Assembly: GCF_015265455.1 (NCBI RefSeq)
Contig: NZ_CP054492.1
Span: forward strand, 1,860,001 to 1,924,000
Length of the DNA stretch: 64,000 nt
Source of the DNA: Candidatus Sulfurimonas baltica
GTDB taxonomy: Bacteria > Campylobacterota > Campylobacteria > Campylobacterales > Sulfurimonadaceae
Reading direction: 5' to 3'
Below the pieces are notes generated by a model. It did not search any database. It worked only from the letters and a program-made list of their open reading frames with translations, and was not told where the DNA came from. A program made the position numbers and the translations under genes. This document shows, piece by piece, positions 18,449-27,195 of the stretch (within the stretch, counting starts at the first letter, position 1; every line of letters starts with the position of its first letter).

Positions 18449-19198
18449 ATGAAAAAACACACTATTATCATTGTAGAAGATGATGAGATTACTGCTCTTA
18501 ATCTAGAACTCTCTCTACAAAAACATGGGTATGATATTATTGCTATATGTGACAATGCCTCTGAAGCTAAAAAAAAGATTGATGAATACAAACCTAATAT
18601 CATTATTATAGATATATCTCTTCAGGAGAGTAGTGATGGTATAGAGTTGGCAAAAACAATTAGAAAAAAATATTCTATACCGTTTATATATTTAACTTCT
18701 CACAGTGATGATGACATCATCGCTGAAGCAATAAAAACGGAACCTTATGGATACATAGTTAAACCATTTGATCCAGTTTCACTACACGCTACAATACAGA
18801 TGGCTATTTTTAAGTTCAGCGTTGAAAATGATAGAAATGAAGAAATAAATGCTTCTAAAATAGATAAACAACACTTAGATAAACTGCTATATGCAAAAAG
18901 AGACCCAGATAAGCCGTTCATCTCTTTCGGAGATGCTTATTATATGGATATCACCAAAAATGAGATATTTTACAATTATGAAAAAATCAAACTTACTAAA
19001 AAAGAGTATGCTATATTGCGGCTTCTTGTTGCCAAACTAGGTAGTGTTATAAGTTTTAAACAAGCTATAGATTATGTGTGGCAAGATAATGGGGCAACTG
19101 AAAACAGCATTAGAACACTAGTTTGGAGACTTAGAAACAAGCTTCCTACTGATATAATAAAAAATGCTTCAGGAATAGGCTATCTTATTGAAAAATAG
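18449..19198 (+). CDS. OmpR-type response regulator
   Basis: A 249-residue regulator. The receiver domain (residues 1-125) has the acidic pair EDD, the phosphorylatable Asp in IIIDISL (about residue 53), the Thr/Ser switch LTSHSDDD and the Lys in IVKPFDP. The C-terminal winged helix (about 155-249) includes KLTKKEYAILRLL and the recognition region ENSIRTLVWRLRNKL. It is convergent with the hybrid kinase gene that ends 10 bases away, so the two are candidate partners, though the kinase has its own receiver and HPt domain. Confidence 0.9.
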   Translation: MKKHTIIIVEDDEITALNLELSLQKHGYDIIAICDNASEAKKKIDEYKPNIIIIDISLQESSDGIELAKTIRKKYSIPFIYLTSHSDDDIIAEAIKTEPYGYIVKPFDPVSLHATIQMAIFKFSVENDRNEEINASKIDKQHLDKLLYAKRDPDKPFISFGDAYYMDITKNEIFYNYEKIKLTKKEYAILRLLVAKLGSVISFKQAIDYVWQDNGATENSIRTLVWRLRNKLPTDIIKNASGIGYLIEK

Positions 19199-19207
19199 TT
19201 CTAATCT

Positions 19208-21865
19208 CTAAGATATTTTTATTTTAGATAATATATTTTCAATTTTTTCAAAAATAGCTTCATAATCAAACTTACTATTTTCCTCTTTTGCCATTCTCTC
19301 CATTATGGAAGTATTCTCTTGCAAAAACTCCATTCTAAAATTACCGCTAGAGCCCTTTATACTATGAGAGATGAGTGAAATCTTTTTATAATCTTTACTC
19401 TCTATTGCATTTTTTAGTTCAGGCAGCTGTTTTGCCATCTTTTTTACAAACATATCTACAAGCATTATTATCTCATCTTCATTTAACATAAGTTCTTTGC
19501 TTAATATTTTAAAATCTAGGCCTTCTATAACATCTTTGTTATTACTACTGTTGATTGATTTTTCCACTTCACCATTTGCAACTTTTAAATAATTAAAAAA
19601 GATTCTCTCTAGCTCTTTAATTACAATAGGTTTTCCTAAAAATGAATCAAAACCGCTTGAAAGACCCCTCTCTTTTGCCCCCTTTATTACATTGGCTGTT
19701 AGTGCAGATATTGGCGTGTGTCTAAGACCTTTTTCTATCTCATATTTTAAAATATTTTTAACTGCCTCATTGCCATCCATTATCGGCATCTGTTCATCCA
19801 TTAAAATTAAATCATAGTTGTTCTTTTTATACAGTGTCAATGCTTCTAAACCATTTGATGCCAAGTCATAGCTCAAACCATACTTTAAAAGTAAAATTTT
19901 TATTAACTCTTGATTTGCTTCATTATCTTCCGCAATTAAAATATGCCCTTCAAACTTCATGCTTGCACTTTTCATATAAGGGGAATAAGAGTCAGGGTAT
20001 AACAACTCATCAAAAGATGTTTTTATTTTTGAGCAATATAGAGGAAAACATATACTTGTAATATGTGAATACTTCTCATAAATATCGTTTGGCTTGCTAG
20101 TAAGAGCAATATATTTTTTGTCTGATTTTAGAATCGTTTCTTTAAAACGTTGATTAGAATCCTCTTCTAAAAATATGGCTATATCATACTCCATATTAAG
20201 AGTATTCACCATATCAATACTAAGATTAAAAATATTAGAGTACTTTAAAAATGATTCCGATTTATAACTGCTTTGCATATTTTCAGAGTAAAAAACTATT
20301 TTTAGTGCTTTAATATCATCTAAATCACTGAAAATTTGGCATGCTTTATTATGTATTTCAACAGGTAATTCAAGCCAGAATATACTGCCTTCCCCAAAAG
20401 TTGATTCAGCTTTTACACTACCGTTCATATGCTCTGCCAATTGGTGACAAATTGACAATCCTAAGCCTGTCCCATCTAAGTTTTCACGTCCACCATGCTG
20501 AGCTTGCGTAAATGCAGAAAACACACTCACTATATCTTCTTTTGCTATTCCTATACCATTATCATGGACACTAACCCGCAAGACACTCTCTTGACATGTA
20601 GCTTCAACTCTTATGTGTCCGCCGACATTTGTAAATTTTATAGCATTACTTAAAAAGTTAGATAAAATCTGCTTTATTCTTAGTGAATCGGCATAGAGCT
20701 CTTTTGGTATTTTTGGGTCTATAAAAGATGTGATTGTTATATCTTTTGAGTTTGCAGAAGCAACAAAAAGCTCTAAAGTATGGCTAATCTCATCATGAAT
20801 AGAGAATATCTTAGGTTCTATTGTAAACTCACCACTTCTTAATTTTGAAAAGTCTAAAATATCATTAATTATACTCAATAAGTTTTCACCACTGTTTAGA
20901 ATAATCTCTAAATATTTTCTATGTTGCTTTGAAAGATCTTGTTCAATTAATAAATTTACAAATCCCAAAATAGCATTAAGAGGGGTTCTAATTTCATGAG
21001 ACATATTTGACAAAAAGTACTCTTTTGCCTGAGAAGCTTTTTGTGCTTCGAGTCTTGCATCTATAAGTGTTGTAACATCATTCGCAATTGACATGTATTC
21101 AATAGAGTCATCATATGGGTCCCTTATTTTTACAATAGTCACATCTATGTAAAAATAATCACCATTTTTTTTAAGATTTTTAATCGTTCCTCTAAATATT
21201 CCGGCATTCCTCAACTGAAACCATAAATCGTCAAAATAGTATTGTGGCATATCTTCGTGTTTTATGATACTGTGTTTTTCTCCTATAAGCTCCAAAGCGC
21301 TATATCCGCTTAATTGTACATATTTGTCATTAACGTATACAATCCTGCCTTCAGAGTCAGTTTTTGAGATAATCGCACTCTCATCAAGTGCCTTTTGGTA
21401 TTCACTAAGAAGTTCAACATGCCTGTCAATCTCTTGTTCCTTTTGAAAGATAGTATCTGTGTAATGTTGTAAAACACCTTGAAAATTTTTATCAAAAATA
21501 TATGATATTTCATCAAATGTCTCTTTTGAGTTAAGCTGAACATCATAAGTAAAATCTATCATTGAGCGTCTAAAGTGACTGCAAATTTCAAAAAGTTCAT
21601 CGGCTCTGATATCTCTATGTTTCAAATATACCAAAAGGCTATGCATTACCGGACAATCGCCTATCTCCAACTCACCTGCAATTACACCCATAAAGTAGTC
21701 AAAAACACCACTTGCATAATCAGTTAAAAATTTTTCATTGTTAATATTGTGAAGTTGTAGAATCTTTTGTGGAGTTTCATAAGATATCCACTGTGAGAGT
21801 ATATTGTCTTTTGACGCCATAAAGATGTCTTGTGTTCTTATTAGATTGGGAAGTGTCTTTTTCAT
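19208..21865 (-). CDS. Hybrid histidine kinase (N-terminal helical sensor, PAS, HisKA, HATPase, REC, HPt)
   Basis: An 885-residue phosphorelay kinase with no transmembrane segment. The domain order is as follows. An alpha-helical N-terminal domain (about 1-155) resembles RsbR-type sensors. A PAS domain (about 165-275) is next. HisKA follows with the phospho-His in NMSHEIRTPLNAI (about 293). The HATPase has DNGIGI and GTGLGLSI. A divergent receiver-like spacer is followed by a receiver with LMDEQMPIMDG (about 690). The HPt domain has HSIKGSSGNF (about 838). It is 3 bases downstream of the deformylase-like membrane gene and most likely shares its operon, suggesting that protein is the input partner. 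Confidence 0.9.
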   Translation of the reverse strand: MKKTLPNLIRTQDIFMASKDNILSQWISYETPQKILQLHNINNEKFLTDYASGVFDYFMGVIAGELEIGDCPVMHSLLVYLKHRDIRADELFEICSHFRRSMIDFTYDVQLNSKETFDEISYIFDKNFQGVLQHYTDTIFQKEQEIDRHVELLSEYQKALDESAIISKTDSEGRIVYVNDKYVQLSGYSALELIGEKHSIIKHEDMPQYYFDDLWFQLRNAGIFRGTIKNLKKNGDYFYIDVTIVKIRDPYDDSIEYMSIANDVTTLIDARLEAQKASQAKEYFLSNMSHEIRTPLNAILGFVNLLIEQDLSKQHRKYLEIILNSGENLLSIINDILDFSKLRSGEFTIEPKIFSIHDEISHTLELFVASANSKDITITSFIDPKIPKELYADSLRIKQILSNFLSNAIKFTNVGGHIRVEATCQESVLRVSVHDNGIGIAKEDIVSVFSAFTQAQHGGRENLDGTGLGLSICHQLAEHMNGSVKAESTFGEGSIFWLELPVEIHNKACQIFSDLDDIKALKIVFYSENMQSSYKSESFLKYSNIFNLSIDMVNTLNMEYDIAIFLEEDSNQRFKETILKSDKKYIALTSKPNDIYEKYSHITSICFPLYCSKIKTSFDELLYPDSYSPYMKSASMKFEGHILIAEDNEANQELIKILLLKYGLSYDLASNGLEALTLYKKNNYDLILMDEQMPIMDGNEAVKNILKYEIEKGLRHTPISALTANVIKGAKERGLSSGFDSFLGKPIVIKELERIFFNYLKVANGEVEKSINSSNNKDVIEGLDFKILSKELMLNEDEIIMLVDMFVKKMAKQLPELKNAIESKDYKKISLISHSIKGSSGNFRMEFLQENTSIMERMAKEENSKFDYEAIFEKIENILSKIKIS

Positions 21866-21868
21866 AGG

Positions 21869-22660
21869 CTACATTATAAAATAAGACAATGACATAAGCA
21901 GAGTAAGTTTGACCAAAGAGACTACAGCTGTTCCTATTATATTTCCAATCTGACAGCTTGTGCATGATGTAAACTTTTTACCTTCATATTGTGCGTAGAA
22001 AAAATAAACAATATTTAAACCTACTACGCCAAAAGATAGATTTAGTTGATAAGACCAAAGATTATCTATAAAAAAAGAGCCTATTAATAAAATAACCATT
22101 ACTATCATTGAAATATTAATAGCTTTAATTATATAGTCTCTTTTGAACGTTGTTGGACAACTCTCAGAAATTGCAACATCGCTTCCAAACTCTAATTTCT
22201 TTTGAAATATTTTCTTTTCATCTTTTGTCAATTTATTTAAAAAACTAGACCCGAATGTATAATCAATCTTTCTTTGAAGTAAAATACTAAGGGCACCATC
22301 AGCCTTTAAGGAGTGATTATCTCCTTCTCTATCTTGATAGACCAAACTAATCGACTCATATCTAGTAACATTGGCACTTAATCCAGGAAAATAAGCTGTT
22401 CTCTCTGTGGTTGTGACTTTACCATTTGTGCTTATTATTCTTGGATTAATAAGTTCTAAATATTTACCATCATACTCTTTAACAACAACAATATTATAAT
22501 AACTACCTATCTGAAAAGCAGCAAGACCATCTAAAGAATTTGCTTTTATTGTATCTTTCATATCTTCTATTAAAGAGTGTATCTCTTCATTGAAAAATCT
22601 TACATCCGTTGCATACTGGACACTTGGAGGGGTAGGATATTTGATTATATCTCTAATCAT
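21869..22660 (-). CDS. Catalytically degenerate peptide-deformylase-like protein with membrane domain
   Basis: 263 residues. Residues 1-160 follow the peptide deformylase fold, with the first motif recognisable as DGLAAFQIG. The metal-binding motif EGCLS is replaced by ERTAY (in ERTAYFPGL), losing the cysteine ligand. The HExDH motif is replaced by RKIDY (in LLQRKIDYTFG), losing both histidines and the catalytic glutamate. Residues about 170-263 hold two to four hydrophobic helices and a CTSC motif (FTSCTSCQIG). So this is a pseudoenzyme tethered to the membrane, not a working deformylase. It is the first gene of the operon with the hybrid kinase, and a sensing role is inferred. Confidence 0.75.
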   Translation of the reverse strand: MIRDIIKYPTPPSVQYATDVRFFNEEIHSLIEDMKDTIKANSLDGLAAFQIGSYYNIVVVKEYDGKYLELINPRIISTNGKVTTTERTAYFPGLSANVTRYESISLVYQDREGDNHSLKADGALSILLQRKIDYTFGSSFLNKLTKDEKKIFQKKLEFGSDVAISESCPTTFKRDYIIKAINISMIVMVILLIGSFFIDNLWSYQLNLSFGVVGLNIVYFFYAQYEGKKFTSCTSCQIGNIIGTAVVSLVKLTLLMSLSYFIM

Positions 22661-22762: not shown

Positions 22763-22927
22763 TTAGTGGCTTTTATTTACCACTATAATCATTTTGATGT
22801 TTATAACAACAAATCTGATTAATTGCCAAATTTTACAAGTTCTCATTGCAATAGCTAATGGACCTGGTGTCATTGTAGTAAAGTTATTTCCATACGCTTT
22901 TATGTTTGATTCTACTTTCTTACTCAT
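22763..22927 (-). CDS. 54-residue small protein next to the SQR-like gene
   Basis: A short ORF with ATG at 22927 behind AAAAGGAAATACT. The protein starts MSKKVESNIKAYGNNF, contains one cysteine (MRTCKIW) and ends in a hydrophobic, basic segment (IRFVVINIKMIIVV), suggesting membrane attachment. It lies 86 bases downstream of the SQR-like gene on the same strand. The good Shine-Dalgarno and sensible composition suggest a real gene, but I do not recognise the family. The rest of 22661-23013 has no other gene. Confidence 0.55.
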   Translation of the reverse strand: MSKKVESNIKAYGNNFTTMTPGPLAIAMRTCKIWQLIRFVVINIKMIIVVNKSH

Positions 22928-23013: not shown

Positions 23014-24483
23014 CTATTCTGGAATTAATGTCCAACCAAACTTTAGTTTAGCTTTCCAAATAAACAAGTGATGAAGAATATGCTTAATCCAGTGACCCGC
23101 AAGACCAATTTCACCAAATGTATAATCTGTATCACGACCAGTACCAGGGTACTTGTCAAAATCAGGAACAACAGGATAGATTGTCATAGCAGCCGCAGTA
23201 CCGTCAAATAGACCTTTACCAGCAGAAGCAACACAAGCAGCACCCATATCAGCCATTGAAGCCTCATGTAATGGAGCATTCTCACCTTTTGTAATACGGT
23301 CACAGATACTGTGAGCTACCGCTTTTCCGATAATACCTGAAGGCATACCAGTTCTTGGAGGAGTTGGATTAATTGGAGTTCCGTTTGGAGAACTCATTGG
23401 CTTTGAAATTGGATGTGGTGGTGCAAATGCTATACCACAAGCAAAGATATTTCCATAAGTCGGGTTTTGGTAAGTTTTAGGCCAATCTGAAGCTTTCCAA
23501 TTCTCATAAGCACCTGCAGCATAGTTAGCATCAACTTTTAAGAAACCGTTTGGAGCAAAAAGAGTAGCAGTTATATCTGTGCCGTCTTTAGCAATTGCTT
23601 TAAGACCAACACCAGCGAATGGAGGGATAAGCATTGAAAAATCGAACTCCTCTTCACCCATTTCACCACTTAATAGTTCATAGTGAACTTTTCCTTTTTC
23701 AACTTTATTTACGTGAGCACCGATGATCCAGTCAACGTTTCTTTCTGTAAATAGAGACTCAGCAAAGATTTTTGAACTAACAGCAAATCCCATAGATTTC
23801 ATATGTAACCCACCAACTCCAAAGTCGCCTAGGAATGATTCATTTGAAATCCACTTGATATCAGCCATGTCACGAACACCAGCTTTATTTAACTCATGCT
23901 CAATATTGAAGATATATTCAAATGCAGCACCTTGACATGTACAAAGACCATGACCAGTACCGATTAAGAATTTTTGACGCTCACCGTTTTTCATTTTTAC
24001 GATAGTCTTCTCTAGCTCTTCATTTGCATGAACAGCGTGATCTGCTGTACAAACTGAAACAGTAAATTCACCAAGACCGTTAGCATCACCAAGACCAGGT
24101 GTTGCTGCAAAATTAAGTTTTGGACCTGTAGCGTTAATTAAATAATCATACTCTATATTCTCAATCTTGCCATCTTCACCATCAATAGTAGATTCAACAA
24201 CAACATAAGGTTTGTCACTTGTCTCATTACCTTCTGGATGAATACCAAGTGCTTTTGCTTGATGGTAAATAATACCAGCTTTAGCATACACAGGAGCTAA
24301 ATCAAAAGTAACATCCTCTTTACTCATTTGACCAACACCAACCCAAATATTCGATGGAATCCAATTCCATTTTGAATTTGGAGTAACAACAACTACTTCA
24401 TGCGCCGAACCTAACCATTTTGCCGCGAAAGTAGCTGCAGTATGACCTGAAACCCCTCCACCAAGAACAACTAATCTTGCCAT
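23014..24483 (-). CDS. sqr: Sulfide:quinone oxidoreductase-like flavoprotein
   Basis: A 489-residue pyridine-nucleotide-disulfide oxidoreductase-fold protein. The N-terminal FAD motif is VVLGGGVSGHTAA, the second nucleotide-binding region is YLINATGPKLNF, and the C-terminal part carries FACGIAFAPPHP. Cysteines near VSVCTADHA (about residue 160) and GHGLCTCQGAAFEY (about 190) occupy positions where SQR enzymes keep redox-active cysteines. SQR transfers electrons from sulfide to the quinone pool at the membrane. Several SQR types coexist in Sulfurimonas; I cannot fix the type, and some relatives are flavoproteins of unproven activity. Confidence 0.78.
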   Translation of the reverse strand: MARLVVLGGGVSGHTAATFAAKWLGSAHEVVVVTPNSKWNWIPSNIWVGVGQMSKEDVTFDLAPVYAKAGIIYHQAKALGIHPEGNETSDKPYVVVESTIDGEDGKIENIEYDYLINATGPKLNFAATPGLGDANGLGEFTVSVCTADHAVHANEELEKTIVKMKNGERQKFLIGTGHGLCTCQGAAFEYIFNIEHELNKAGVRDMADIKWISNESFLGDFGVGGLHMKSMGFAVSSKIFAESLFTERNVDWIIGAHVNKVEKGKVHYELLSGEMGEEEFDFSMLIPPFAGVGLKAIAKDGTDITATLFAPNGFLKVDANYAAGAYENWKASDWPKTYQNPTYGNIFACGIAFAPPHPISKPMSSPNGTPINPTPPRTGMPSGIIGKAVAHSICDRITKGENAPLHEASMADMGAACVASAGKGLFDGTAAAMTIYPVVPDFDKYPGTGRDTDYTFGEIGLAGHWIKHILHHLFIWKAKLKFGWTLIPE

Positions 24484-24636: not shown

Positions 24637-27195
24637 TCAAATTTTTATAATCTTGCTCACTATTTCATAAACATTTTTTGAGATTGATTGTGTAGAAACT
24701 ACACGGTCAAGCTCAATTTTCATCGCTATCTTGTTCTTAGAATTAAGTTTTTCATATATTTTATAGGCTCCTGCGAGTCCGGATGCTATCTGCGGATTTA
24801 TTTTATCTATTTCAATTATTTTATCTACTACAAACTTATATCCATTCCCATCTTTTGCATGAAAATGTTTATAATTTCTTGCAAATACCCCGATTAGTGA
24901 ACGAACTAGATTTGGCACAAGTTCATTGTATACATCATCATCTTGAAGAAGTTTTACTCTATCAAGTGTTCCATCTCTGTGTGATGCTGCTAAGATTGAG
25001 AAGTACTTATTCATAACCAATGTGTCATCTTTGTATTTTTTGTAAAAATCAGCAAGTGCAGTCTTTGCAAAAGCCGATGAAGTGTTTTCTAAAATATCTA
25101 GTGCGACTGCTCTGTCTGTCATAGTTATAGAGTCGTTATATTGATTGTTGGCCAACTCTATCACCTCATCATTTTTGAGTGCAGAGAGAAGTTTTAAACA
25201 ACGGTTTTTAATACTTCTCTCTCCAATACTTTTCGCATTTATATCTTTACATGTAGGTTTATGATATTTTTTGTACATCTCCAAAAGTTCATCTTTGAAT
25301 GTTGTCGCCAAATGAAGCTCCAACTTCTCTTTGGCTTCATATATAAGCTCAAAATCTATTTCATCTTGCCTCTGCATAAGTGTGGAAACAGTTGGCAGTT
25401 CCAAAATCAGAGCCTTATATGAAAGATCCATATCTCCATTTAAAAGAGACTCGAATGATTTTATATACTCTTCATCTACAGCTTTACCCTCCATGATAGA
25501 CTCTATCGTTAGAACTCCAAAAGATTGAGCCGATTCATACTTGACAAAACTATTTTTATCAAACTTCATAAGGAATGGATAATTATTCTTTTTTTGTTCA
25601 ATTATAATAGGTGCAGAAAAGTCTCTGTTTATCGACAAGACAGGGTTTGACTCAATCTTGTATACAAACTCCTCTTTAGCTTTTGACACTATCAGAGTCT
25701 CTGCTAGTATCTCATCTCCACTATCAGCCAAAAGAGCTATTTTAAGAGGATAATAGTATGGCTTTTGCTCACTTCCATCAACAGCATTTGGAACCTCTTG
25801 AGTCAGCGTCAGTTTATACTCTCCATCTATAAAGCTCTCATCTACATGCAGCTTTGGTGTGCCTGATTGATGGTACCAGGTCTCAAAAGCTTTTAAGTCA
25901 ACTCCGCTTGCCTTGCTCATAGCCCATAAAAAGTCATCAGTTCTTACCGCCTGACCATCAAAGCTATCAAAATAAAGATCTGTTGCTTTACGGTAATTTT
26001 CTTCACCCAAAAGAGTATGAATCATGCGGATTATTTCAGCGCCCTTCTCATAAACAGTTGCCGTATAAAAATTATTTATAGCCATATAAGAGTCTGGCTG
26101 AATCGGGTGAGCCGTCGGTGAGGCATCTTCAACAAACTGTCTTTCTCTGAGAGCTTTTACATCCTCTATACGCTGAACCTCTTTGGAGTTTAAGTCGGCG
26201 GAAAAACACTGGTCTCTAAAAACAGTCAAACCCTCTTTTAGAGTCAGCTGAAACCAATCTCTACATGTAATCCTGTTTCCTGTCCAGTTATGAAAATACT
26301 CATGTGCGATAACGCTCTGAATACCCATAAAATTAGCATCGGTAGCTGTATCCTCATCTGCTAAAACATAGGCTGAGTTAAAAATGTTTAGTCCTTTGTT
26401 CTCCATAGCACCCATATTAAAACTATCTACGGCAACTATATTATAGAGAGTCAAATCATACTCACGGCCATATTTCTCCTCATCCCAAAGCATAGCCTCT
26501 TTAAGCGACTTCATAGCGTGTTTACATTTAGACTCATTTCCTTTGTCTGTGTATATGTTAAGTCTAACTATTTTTGAGCTTGCTGTCTTAAAAGTATCTT
26601 TAACAACACCTAAGTCTCCAGCAACAAGAGCAAAAAGGTATGATGGTTTTGGGTGTGGATCATCCCATGTAATTCCATGTCTTCCATCGTCTAGCTTAAA
26701 GTTTGATGCAGTGTTTCCATTGCTTAGTAAAATTGGATATTTTTCTCTGTTAGCAACAAGCGTTGTTTTAAAAACCGCCATTACATCCGGACGGTCTAAA
26801 TAAGGAGTTATTCTTCTAAAACCTTCCGGCTCATTTTGAGTACAAAAGATATCCCCTGATTTATAAAGACCGTCTAGTTCACTGTTTAGGTGAGGGTAGA
26901 TTTTGTTAATTACTATAAGCTTAAAATTATCCGGAACGTCTAATACAGTAAGTGTCTCTTTATCGATAACATATCTGCTCTCCTTTAGTTTTAAGTCATT
27001 AATATAGAGTTCTATTAACTCCAAATCTACGCTGTTTAAGACTATGTTTTTAGACCCCTTGTCTACTTTTGTTATACTCATCATATTTGTAACTTGGGTA
27101 TACTCTTCAAATAACTCAAAAACTAAATCACAATTTTTTATTTCAAATTCCGGCGCTTTATAATCTTTTAGATATGTAGTTTGAACTTTACTCAT
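24637..27195 (-). CDS. pepN: Aminopeptidase N (M1 family)
   Basis: An 852-residue zinc aminopeptidase. The exopeptidase motif GAMENKG (about residue 262) is followed by the zinc motif HEYFHNW with the distal glutamate in LKEGLTVFRDQ (about residues 295-322). The C-terminal helical ARM-like domain is complete. It is the gammaproteobacterial-type PepN used for general peptide turnover in the cytoplasm. It stands alone, divergent from the biotin carboxylase gene. Confidence 0.95.
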   Translation of the reverse strand: MSKVQTTYLKDYKAPEFEIKNCDLVFELFEEYTQVTNMMSITKVDKGSKNIVLNSVDLELIELYINDLKLKESRYVIDKETLTVLDVPDNFKLIVINKIYPHLNSELDGLYKSGDIFCTQNEPEGFRRITPYLDRPDVMAVFKTTLVANREKYPILLSNGNTASNFKLDDGRHGITWDDPHPKPSYLFALVAGDLGVVKDTFKTASSKIVRLNIYTDKGNESKCKHAMKSLKEAMLWDEEKYGREYDLTLYNIVAVDSFNMGAMENKGLNIFNSAYVLADEDTATDANFMGIQSVIAHEYFHNWTGNRITCRDWFQLTLKEGLTVFRDQCFSADLNSKEVQRIEDVKALRERQFVEDASPTAHPIQPDSYMAINNFYTATVYEKGAEIIRMIHTLLGEENYRKATDLYFDSFDGQAVRTDDFLWAMSKASGVDLKAFETWYHQSGTPKLHVDESFIDGEYKLTLTQEVPNAVDGSEQKPYYYPLKIALLADSGDEILAETLIVSKAKEEFVYKIESNPVLSINRDFSAPIIIEQKKNNYPFLMKFDKNSFVKYESAQSFGVLTIESIMEGKAVDEEYIKSFESLLNGDMDLSYKALILELPTVSTLMQRQDEIDFELIYEAKEKLELHLATTFKDELLEMYKKYHKPTCKDINAKSIGERSIKNRCLKLLSALKNDEVIELANNQYNDSITMTDRAVALDILENTSSAFAKTALADFYKKYKDDTLVMNKYFSILAASHRDGTLDRVKLLQDDDVYNELVPNLVRSLIGVFARNYKHFHAKDGNGYKFVVDKIIEIDKINPQIASGLAGAYKIYEKLNSKNKIAMKIELDRVVSTQSISKNVYEIVSKIIKI

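Follow-up and report, generated by a model that had tools for sequence, protein, structure and literature searches.

The window analyzed here is a stretch of 64,000 nucleotides from Candidatus Sulfurimonas baltica (contig NZ_CP054492.1, positions 1,860,001 to 1,924,000). The gene of interest within it is predicted to encode a membrane-tethered relative of the peptide deformylases (PDFs), referred to here as the pseudo-deformylase or pseudo-PDF. It lies among the following features:

18449..19198, plus strand: OmpR-type response regulator, convergent with the kinase
19208..21865, minus strand: soluble hybrid histidine kinase with an N-terminal helical domain followed by PAS, HisKA, HATPase, receiver and Hpt domains
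21371-21865, minus strand: N-terminal domain of the kinase, for which no Pfam family was found; predicted RsbR/globin-like fold
21869..22660, minus strand: pseudo-PDF, 263 aa; a PDF domain (approximately residues 1-158) without metal ligands, followed by three predicted transmembrane helices
22763..22927, minus strand: predicted, unannotated ORF of 54 aa (RTCxIWQxxRFxxxNxKMxxVVxKSH) between the SQR and the pseudo-PDF
23014..24483, minus strand: sulfide:quinone oxidoreductase (SQR)-like flavoprotein, 489 aa; C145, C183 and C417 align with the cysteines of Aquifex SQR

The kinase ORF (19208-21865) starts 3 bases past the pseudo-PDF ORF (21869-22660), both on the minus strand. This spacing had been recorded in the first-pass annotation, together with the PAS and Hpt domains of the soluble hybrid kinase, and both the gap and the domains (Pfam) are confirmed. 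That annotation had missed three features: the 54-aa ORF (22763-22927), the SQR (23014-24483) and the Pfam-less N-terminal domain of the kinase.

A deformylase fold that has lost its metal site

Residues 2-149 of the pseudo-PDF match the Pfam family Pep_deformylase (PF01327) with an E-value of 9.4e-33, and the same family is matched by 22/22 pseudo-PDF members. Among solved structures, the closest by sequence is the PDF of H. pylori (2ew5; E 1.4e-17); in the alignment of the two, EGCLS stands against ERTAY and QHEIDH against QRKIDY in the window's protein. An AlphaFold2 model built from 44 window and locus sequences (mean pLDDT 81.5, with residues 1-17 and 161-165 below 50) is consistent with this assignment. 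A Foldseek search with the model places solved deformylases at the top (E 4.2e-12), and PDFs also rank first in VIA-align, where the E. coli enzyme (1bsj) aligns over 157 residues with a Z of 19.6 and an rmsd of 2.9. The deformylase fold markers and the replacements of EGCLS by ERTAY and of HExDH by RKIDY, which had been read from the sequence at first pass, are thus borne out by alignment and structure prediction.

The membrane region with a CTSC motif, likewise noted at first pass, corresponds to three predicted helices C-terminal to the PDF domain (residues 174-194, 202-229 and 238-262 of the AlphaFold2 model), and no Pfam match was found for this membrane domain. The CTSC motif (C233-T-S-C236, residues 233-236) is located between helices 2 and 3, and the only other cysteine of the window's protein, C168, precedes helix 1. 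Both the PDF domain and the three cysteines probably face the cytoplasm at the membrane, because there is little sequence ahead of the PDF domain and because Lys and Arg are richer before helix 1 (mean 2.6) and between helices 2 and 3 (1.6) than between helices 1 and 2 (0.7). Net charge argues in part against this topology, since it is close to zero before helix 1 (-0.16, compared with +0.48 between helices 2 and 3 and -1.43 between helices 1 and 2).

The loss of the metal site extends across the family. Residues were counted in 131 distinct ORFs of at least 200 aa that match both the PDF and the membrane-domain models, a set of distinct translations in which one gene may be represented more than once through truncated copies. 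In all 131, the metal-binding Cys is replaced by Thr, Ser or Asp, the catalytic Glu is replaced by Lys, Gln or Met, and the second His of the metal site is gone; the first His is gone in 129/131. None of the 131 carries the Cys, His and His ligands together with the catalytic Glu that characterize the enzyme. Two ORFs (L180:3974-4798 and L188:4397-5203) have a His at the first HExxH position only, without the other ligands. The NCBIfam equivalog model TIGR00079 scores the window's pseudo-PDF at 78.7 bits, below its cut-off of 103.95. Other positions are strongly conserved: E86, R100, Q129 and D133 are retained in 131/131 sequences and Q50 in 127/131, while C233 and C236 are found in 131/131 and C168 in 127/131.

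Over 12 close pairs, dN/dS ranges from 0 to 0.13 in the PDF domain and from 0.03 to 0.20 in the membrane domain, with dS above 1 for two PDF-domain and three membrane-domain estimates. In a tree of the PDF domain, 37 pseudo copies are separated from 21 canonical deformylases of the same order (picked by their metal-ligand and catalytic motifs) by a split supported at 100/100, although the program warned of one long canonical branch. The genome of the window carries a canonical def elsewhere (L112, EGCLS/QHEYDH), in addition to a second pseudo-PDF copy with 51% identity to the first. By these sequence comparisons, the pseudo-PDF is under purifying selection, has lost the metal site and belongs to a clade apart from the true deformylases. 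Since the same losses occur in 131 relatives, dN/dS is low and a canonical def is present elsewhere in the genome, the replacements are conserved and do not reflect decay, a concern that the first-pass annotation had raised about this copy. The best explanation is that the pseudo-PDF is a catalytically dead PDF fused to a three-helix membrane domain. Annotation by PF01327 alone would count such dead copies as deformylases.

Co-inheritance with an SQR and a small ORF

The flavoprotein upstream of the pseudo-PDF matches Aquifex SQR (PDB 3hyv) with an E-value of 2.6e-39, and both this match and the aligned cysteines identify the ORF at 23014-24483 as an SQR. Among 35 relatives, C145 is retained in 35/35, and C183 and C417 in 34/35 each. 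The protein probably belongs to SQR type IV or VI, and the window's genome contains just one further match to it, which is weak.

The distribution of the two genes was surveyed in 397 genomes of the phylum, in which SQR was accepted at E-values up to 1e-60 and the pseudo-PDF was tracked by its C-terminal domain, which is missing from canonical deformylases. SQR is present in 111/397 genomes and the C-terminal domain in 80/397, and all 80 genomes with the domain also carry SQR (a count uncorrected for kinship). The domain starts 217-1064 bases downstream of SQR, on the same strand, in 72 of the 80; in the remaining 8 it is elsewhere or on a different contig. Counted by place, 19 of 91 occurrences are away from SQR; these are second or scattered copies, or fragments at contig ends. 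The C-terminal domain is missing from 31 of the 111 SQR genomes, so SQR can do without the pseudo-PDF. Across the 52 genomes that make up the window's family, pseudo-PDF and SQR presence are associated (45/0/3/4, p 1.3e-4; shared ancestry uncorrected). SQR is missing from 4 of 32 genomes of the same genus, and these four (4/4) also lack the 54-aa ORF and the pseudo-PDF.

Adjacency was also tallied in a scan of close relatives, which took one genome per GTDB species and returned 104 matches, the best 80 of which carry names of Campylobacterota or just 'bacterium' (L058). Among these best 80 of 104, the pseudo-PDF follows SQR in 50 of 73 assessable copies; 7/80 loci, with less than 700 nt upstream and SQR not seen, were set aside. 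The stretch between SQR and the pseudo-PDF gave no convincing terminator or promoter signals, only consensus matches. In one genome (G290, L176:5051-5347), a 98-aa ORF that follows SQR and the small ORF resembles the membrane domain alone and keeps the motif as CTGC (a weak match, E 7.2e-7).

The 54-aa ORF has 13 residues that are invariant across 19 loci, including C31, W34-Q35, R38-F39, N43 and K45-M46. It is present in 111/397 genomes of the phylum, which is exactly the SQR set, and it therefore also occurs in genomes without the pseudo-PDF. The window copy matches no Pfam or NCBIfam family. An initial assignment to DUF4492 was dropped, since Pfam gave nothing for this copy and, across 19 members, just two weak and unrelated matches (E 0.015 and 0.091). 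One copy, in G370:C95, precedes a pseudo-PDF located away from SQR. The small ORF, with the same genome distribution as SQR, may be the more general discovery.

Pseudo-PDF copies remote from SQR often have neighbors with a sulfur theme. Among the best 80 of 104 relatives, 13/23 such copies have an AhpD- or DsrE-like gene no more than 2.1 kb away, while the other 10/23 lack an AhpD or DsrE neighbor, and those inspected adjoin varied genes; the theme is supportive, not universal. The second pseudo-PDF of the window's genome (L111:4803-7818) is found in the order two Sulf_transp genes, a CMD/AhpD-like gene, a DsrE-like gene and the pseudo-PDF. The co-occurrence and usual adjacency of the pseudo-PDF with SQR, and the 54-aa ORF shared between them, can be read directly from the sequences, as can the loss of the metal site. 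SQR and the 54-aa ORF are the faithful partners of the pseudo-PDF, and the conserved cassette of SQR, small protein and pseudo-PDF is a stronger finding than the link to the kinase.

The neighboring hybrid kinase

The first-pass annotation had proposed a signaling arrangement in which the kinase is the defining partner of the deformylase-like protein. In such an arrangement, the pseudo-PDF would act as sensor or co-receptor: by binding a peptide, formylated or otherwise, or a reactive sulfur species, it would control the soluble hybrid kinase. The window's 3-base gap agrees with this proposal, as does the fact that the kinase is next downstream in 40/48 SQR-linked pseudo-PDF copies with enough sequence (among the best 80 of 104 relatives). 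Also, the N-terminus of the kinase is a conserved helical domain in which C71-P72 and C95 are invariant. However, the kinase is found beside the pseudo-PDF in most Sulfurimonas-like loci only. Within the 52 genomes of the window's family, the two genes show no association (42/3/6/1, p 0.45; kinase matches of at least 175 bits, shared ancestry uncorrected), and the kinase N-terminal domain has no match, not even a weaker one, in the 35 pseudo-PDF genomes outside this family (0/35).

Individual loci point in the same direction. In L195-L198, the four same-genus genomes without SQR, 54-aa ORF and pseudo-PDF (4/4), aminopeptidase N is followed directly by the kinase, a layout that would fit either loss of the cassette or its never having been inserted. 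Two loci (L161 and L162) contain SQR and the 54-aa ORF and then the kinase, with the pseudo-PDF missing, and two others (L200 and L201) contain SQR and the pseudo-PDF without the kinase, as do the 35 genomes outside the window's family. The kinase, moreover, owns an input-like domain at its N-terminus, and this domain also heads other ORFs across the phylum. With no match outside the family, no association inside it and the kinase kept where the cassette is missing, its standing as an obligate partner is weakened, and we regard control of the kinase by the pseudo-PDF as unlikely. Of the arrangement proposed at first pass, the conserved, membrane-tethered PDF pseudoenzyme is supported, and the kinase as its defining partner is not.

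Aminopeptidase N (24637-27195) was also considered as a partner of the pseudo-PDF, an idea suggested by the theme of N-terminal processing. It is upstream in many Sulfurimonas-like loci, also in ones without the cassette, whereas the distant SQR-PDF loci (L113-L116 and L118-L122) did not show it; it is therefore taken as a positional neighbor.

Possible roles and known systems

SQR produces sulfane sulfur, and the pseudo-PDF is probably an accessory linked to this enzyme. The fuller reading, in which a dead PDF carrying a three-helix membrane domain serves as an accessory of one particular SQR type, is favored tentatively, at slightly less than an even chance. Against an accessory role are the 31/111 SQR genomes that lack the pseudo-PDF, the 10/23 SQR-remote copies among varied genes, and the fact that the co-occurrence test ignores shared ancestry. 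As an accessory, the pseudo-PDF may bind SQR and/or the 54-aa protein, and the surviving PDF cleft (Q50, E86, R100, Q129 and D133) could dock a protein segment or a thiol compound without deformylating it. C168, C233 and C236 could then accept or sense the sulfane sulfur made by SQR, although we consider such sulfur handling by the cysteines possible rather than likely. In Sulfurimonas relatives, the hybrid kinase and the regulator beside the cassette may read the status of sulfide oxidation, but the pseudo-PDF does not depend on them. In its most specific and somewhat more doubtful form, the proposal is a three-part system: SQR, a membrane peptide of 54 aa that is obligate, and a pseudo-PDF whose cleft and three cysteines take up sulfane sulfur and pass it to a cytoplasmic acceptor. 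If true, an enzyme of housekeeping translation would have become a subunit in sulfur energy metabolism.

Other explanations fare less well than an SQR accessory. PDFs act at the ribosome, and the pseudo-PDF might be a membrane biogenesis factor that contacts the ribosome, or the N-terminus of SQR or of the small protein as it emerges, and aids membrane placement without deformylating. The peptide-side residues E86, R100, Q129 and D133 kept on a PDF fold, the predicted membrane anchor and the strict linkage both to SQR and to a small, hydrophobic protein would all suit such a factor, but 31/111 SQR genomes manage without it and the cysteines are left unexplained, so that we judge this role even less likely than control of the kinase. 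More improbable is a new metalloprotein, in which C168, C233, C236 and an acidic or other residue would coordinate a different metal, or an Fe-S cluster, serving in electron transfer or as a redox sensor; the retention of the three cysteines agrees with it, but four sequences are without C168 and a fourth ligand was not found. A decaying duplicate of def, to which the lost catalytic residues might point, is ruled out for practical purposes by the identical replacements across the family, the low dN/dS of the PDF domain and the separate clade.

With a dead but conserved deformylase and a 54-aa protein that lacks annotation, both tied to one SQR, there are concrete genes for experiments. In PMC4584964 and PMC7952632, types IV and VI are described as widely conserved in sequenced Sulfurimonas, types I and IV as grouping together, and the roles of the types as unsettled; the former, a 2015 review, calls the distinct roles of the SQR types in these bacteria enigmatic. 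The word 'deformylase' does not occur in the latter. Among the matches listed in searches of the open-access literature, none concerns an inactive or pseudoenzyme deformylase of this kind, judged by title and beginning of abstract. Open-access searches also returned no deformylase in connection with Sulfurimonas and no SQR with a small membrane protein subunit; peptide deformylase combined with sulfide quinone gave only Fe-S cluster work.

Among known systems, the kinase N-terminus is likened to the N-terminal domain of RsbR (2bnl) and to globin-coupled sensors by its predicted helical fold, although the VIA-align Z of 12.7 (rmsd 2.6 over 126 residues) is only suggestive, because such a Z can arise by chance in helical folds. 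It shares 10% identity with RsbR, its best Foldseek E-value is just 0.24, and, unlike RsbR, it has the invariant C71-P72 and C95. The window's SQR resembles Aquifex SQR (3hyv) in sequence and in its aligned cysteines; unlike it, it is approximately 490 rather than 430 aa long and is accompanied by the 54-aa ORF and often by the pseudo-PDF. Structures of the E. coli deformylase with hydrosulfide bound to its metal are available (PDB 4az4 and 4al2). The pseudo-PDF itself shares the fold of PDFs (PF01327; 2ew5 and 1bsj) over residues 1-163, with Q50, E86, R100, Q129 and D133 mostly kept. Unlike these enzymes, it lacks the metal Cys, the second His and the catalytic Glu, and adds a predicted three-helix membrane domain with conserved cysteines.
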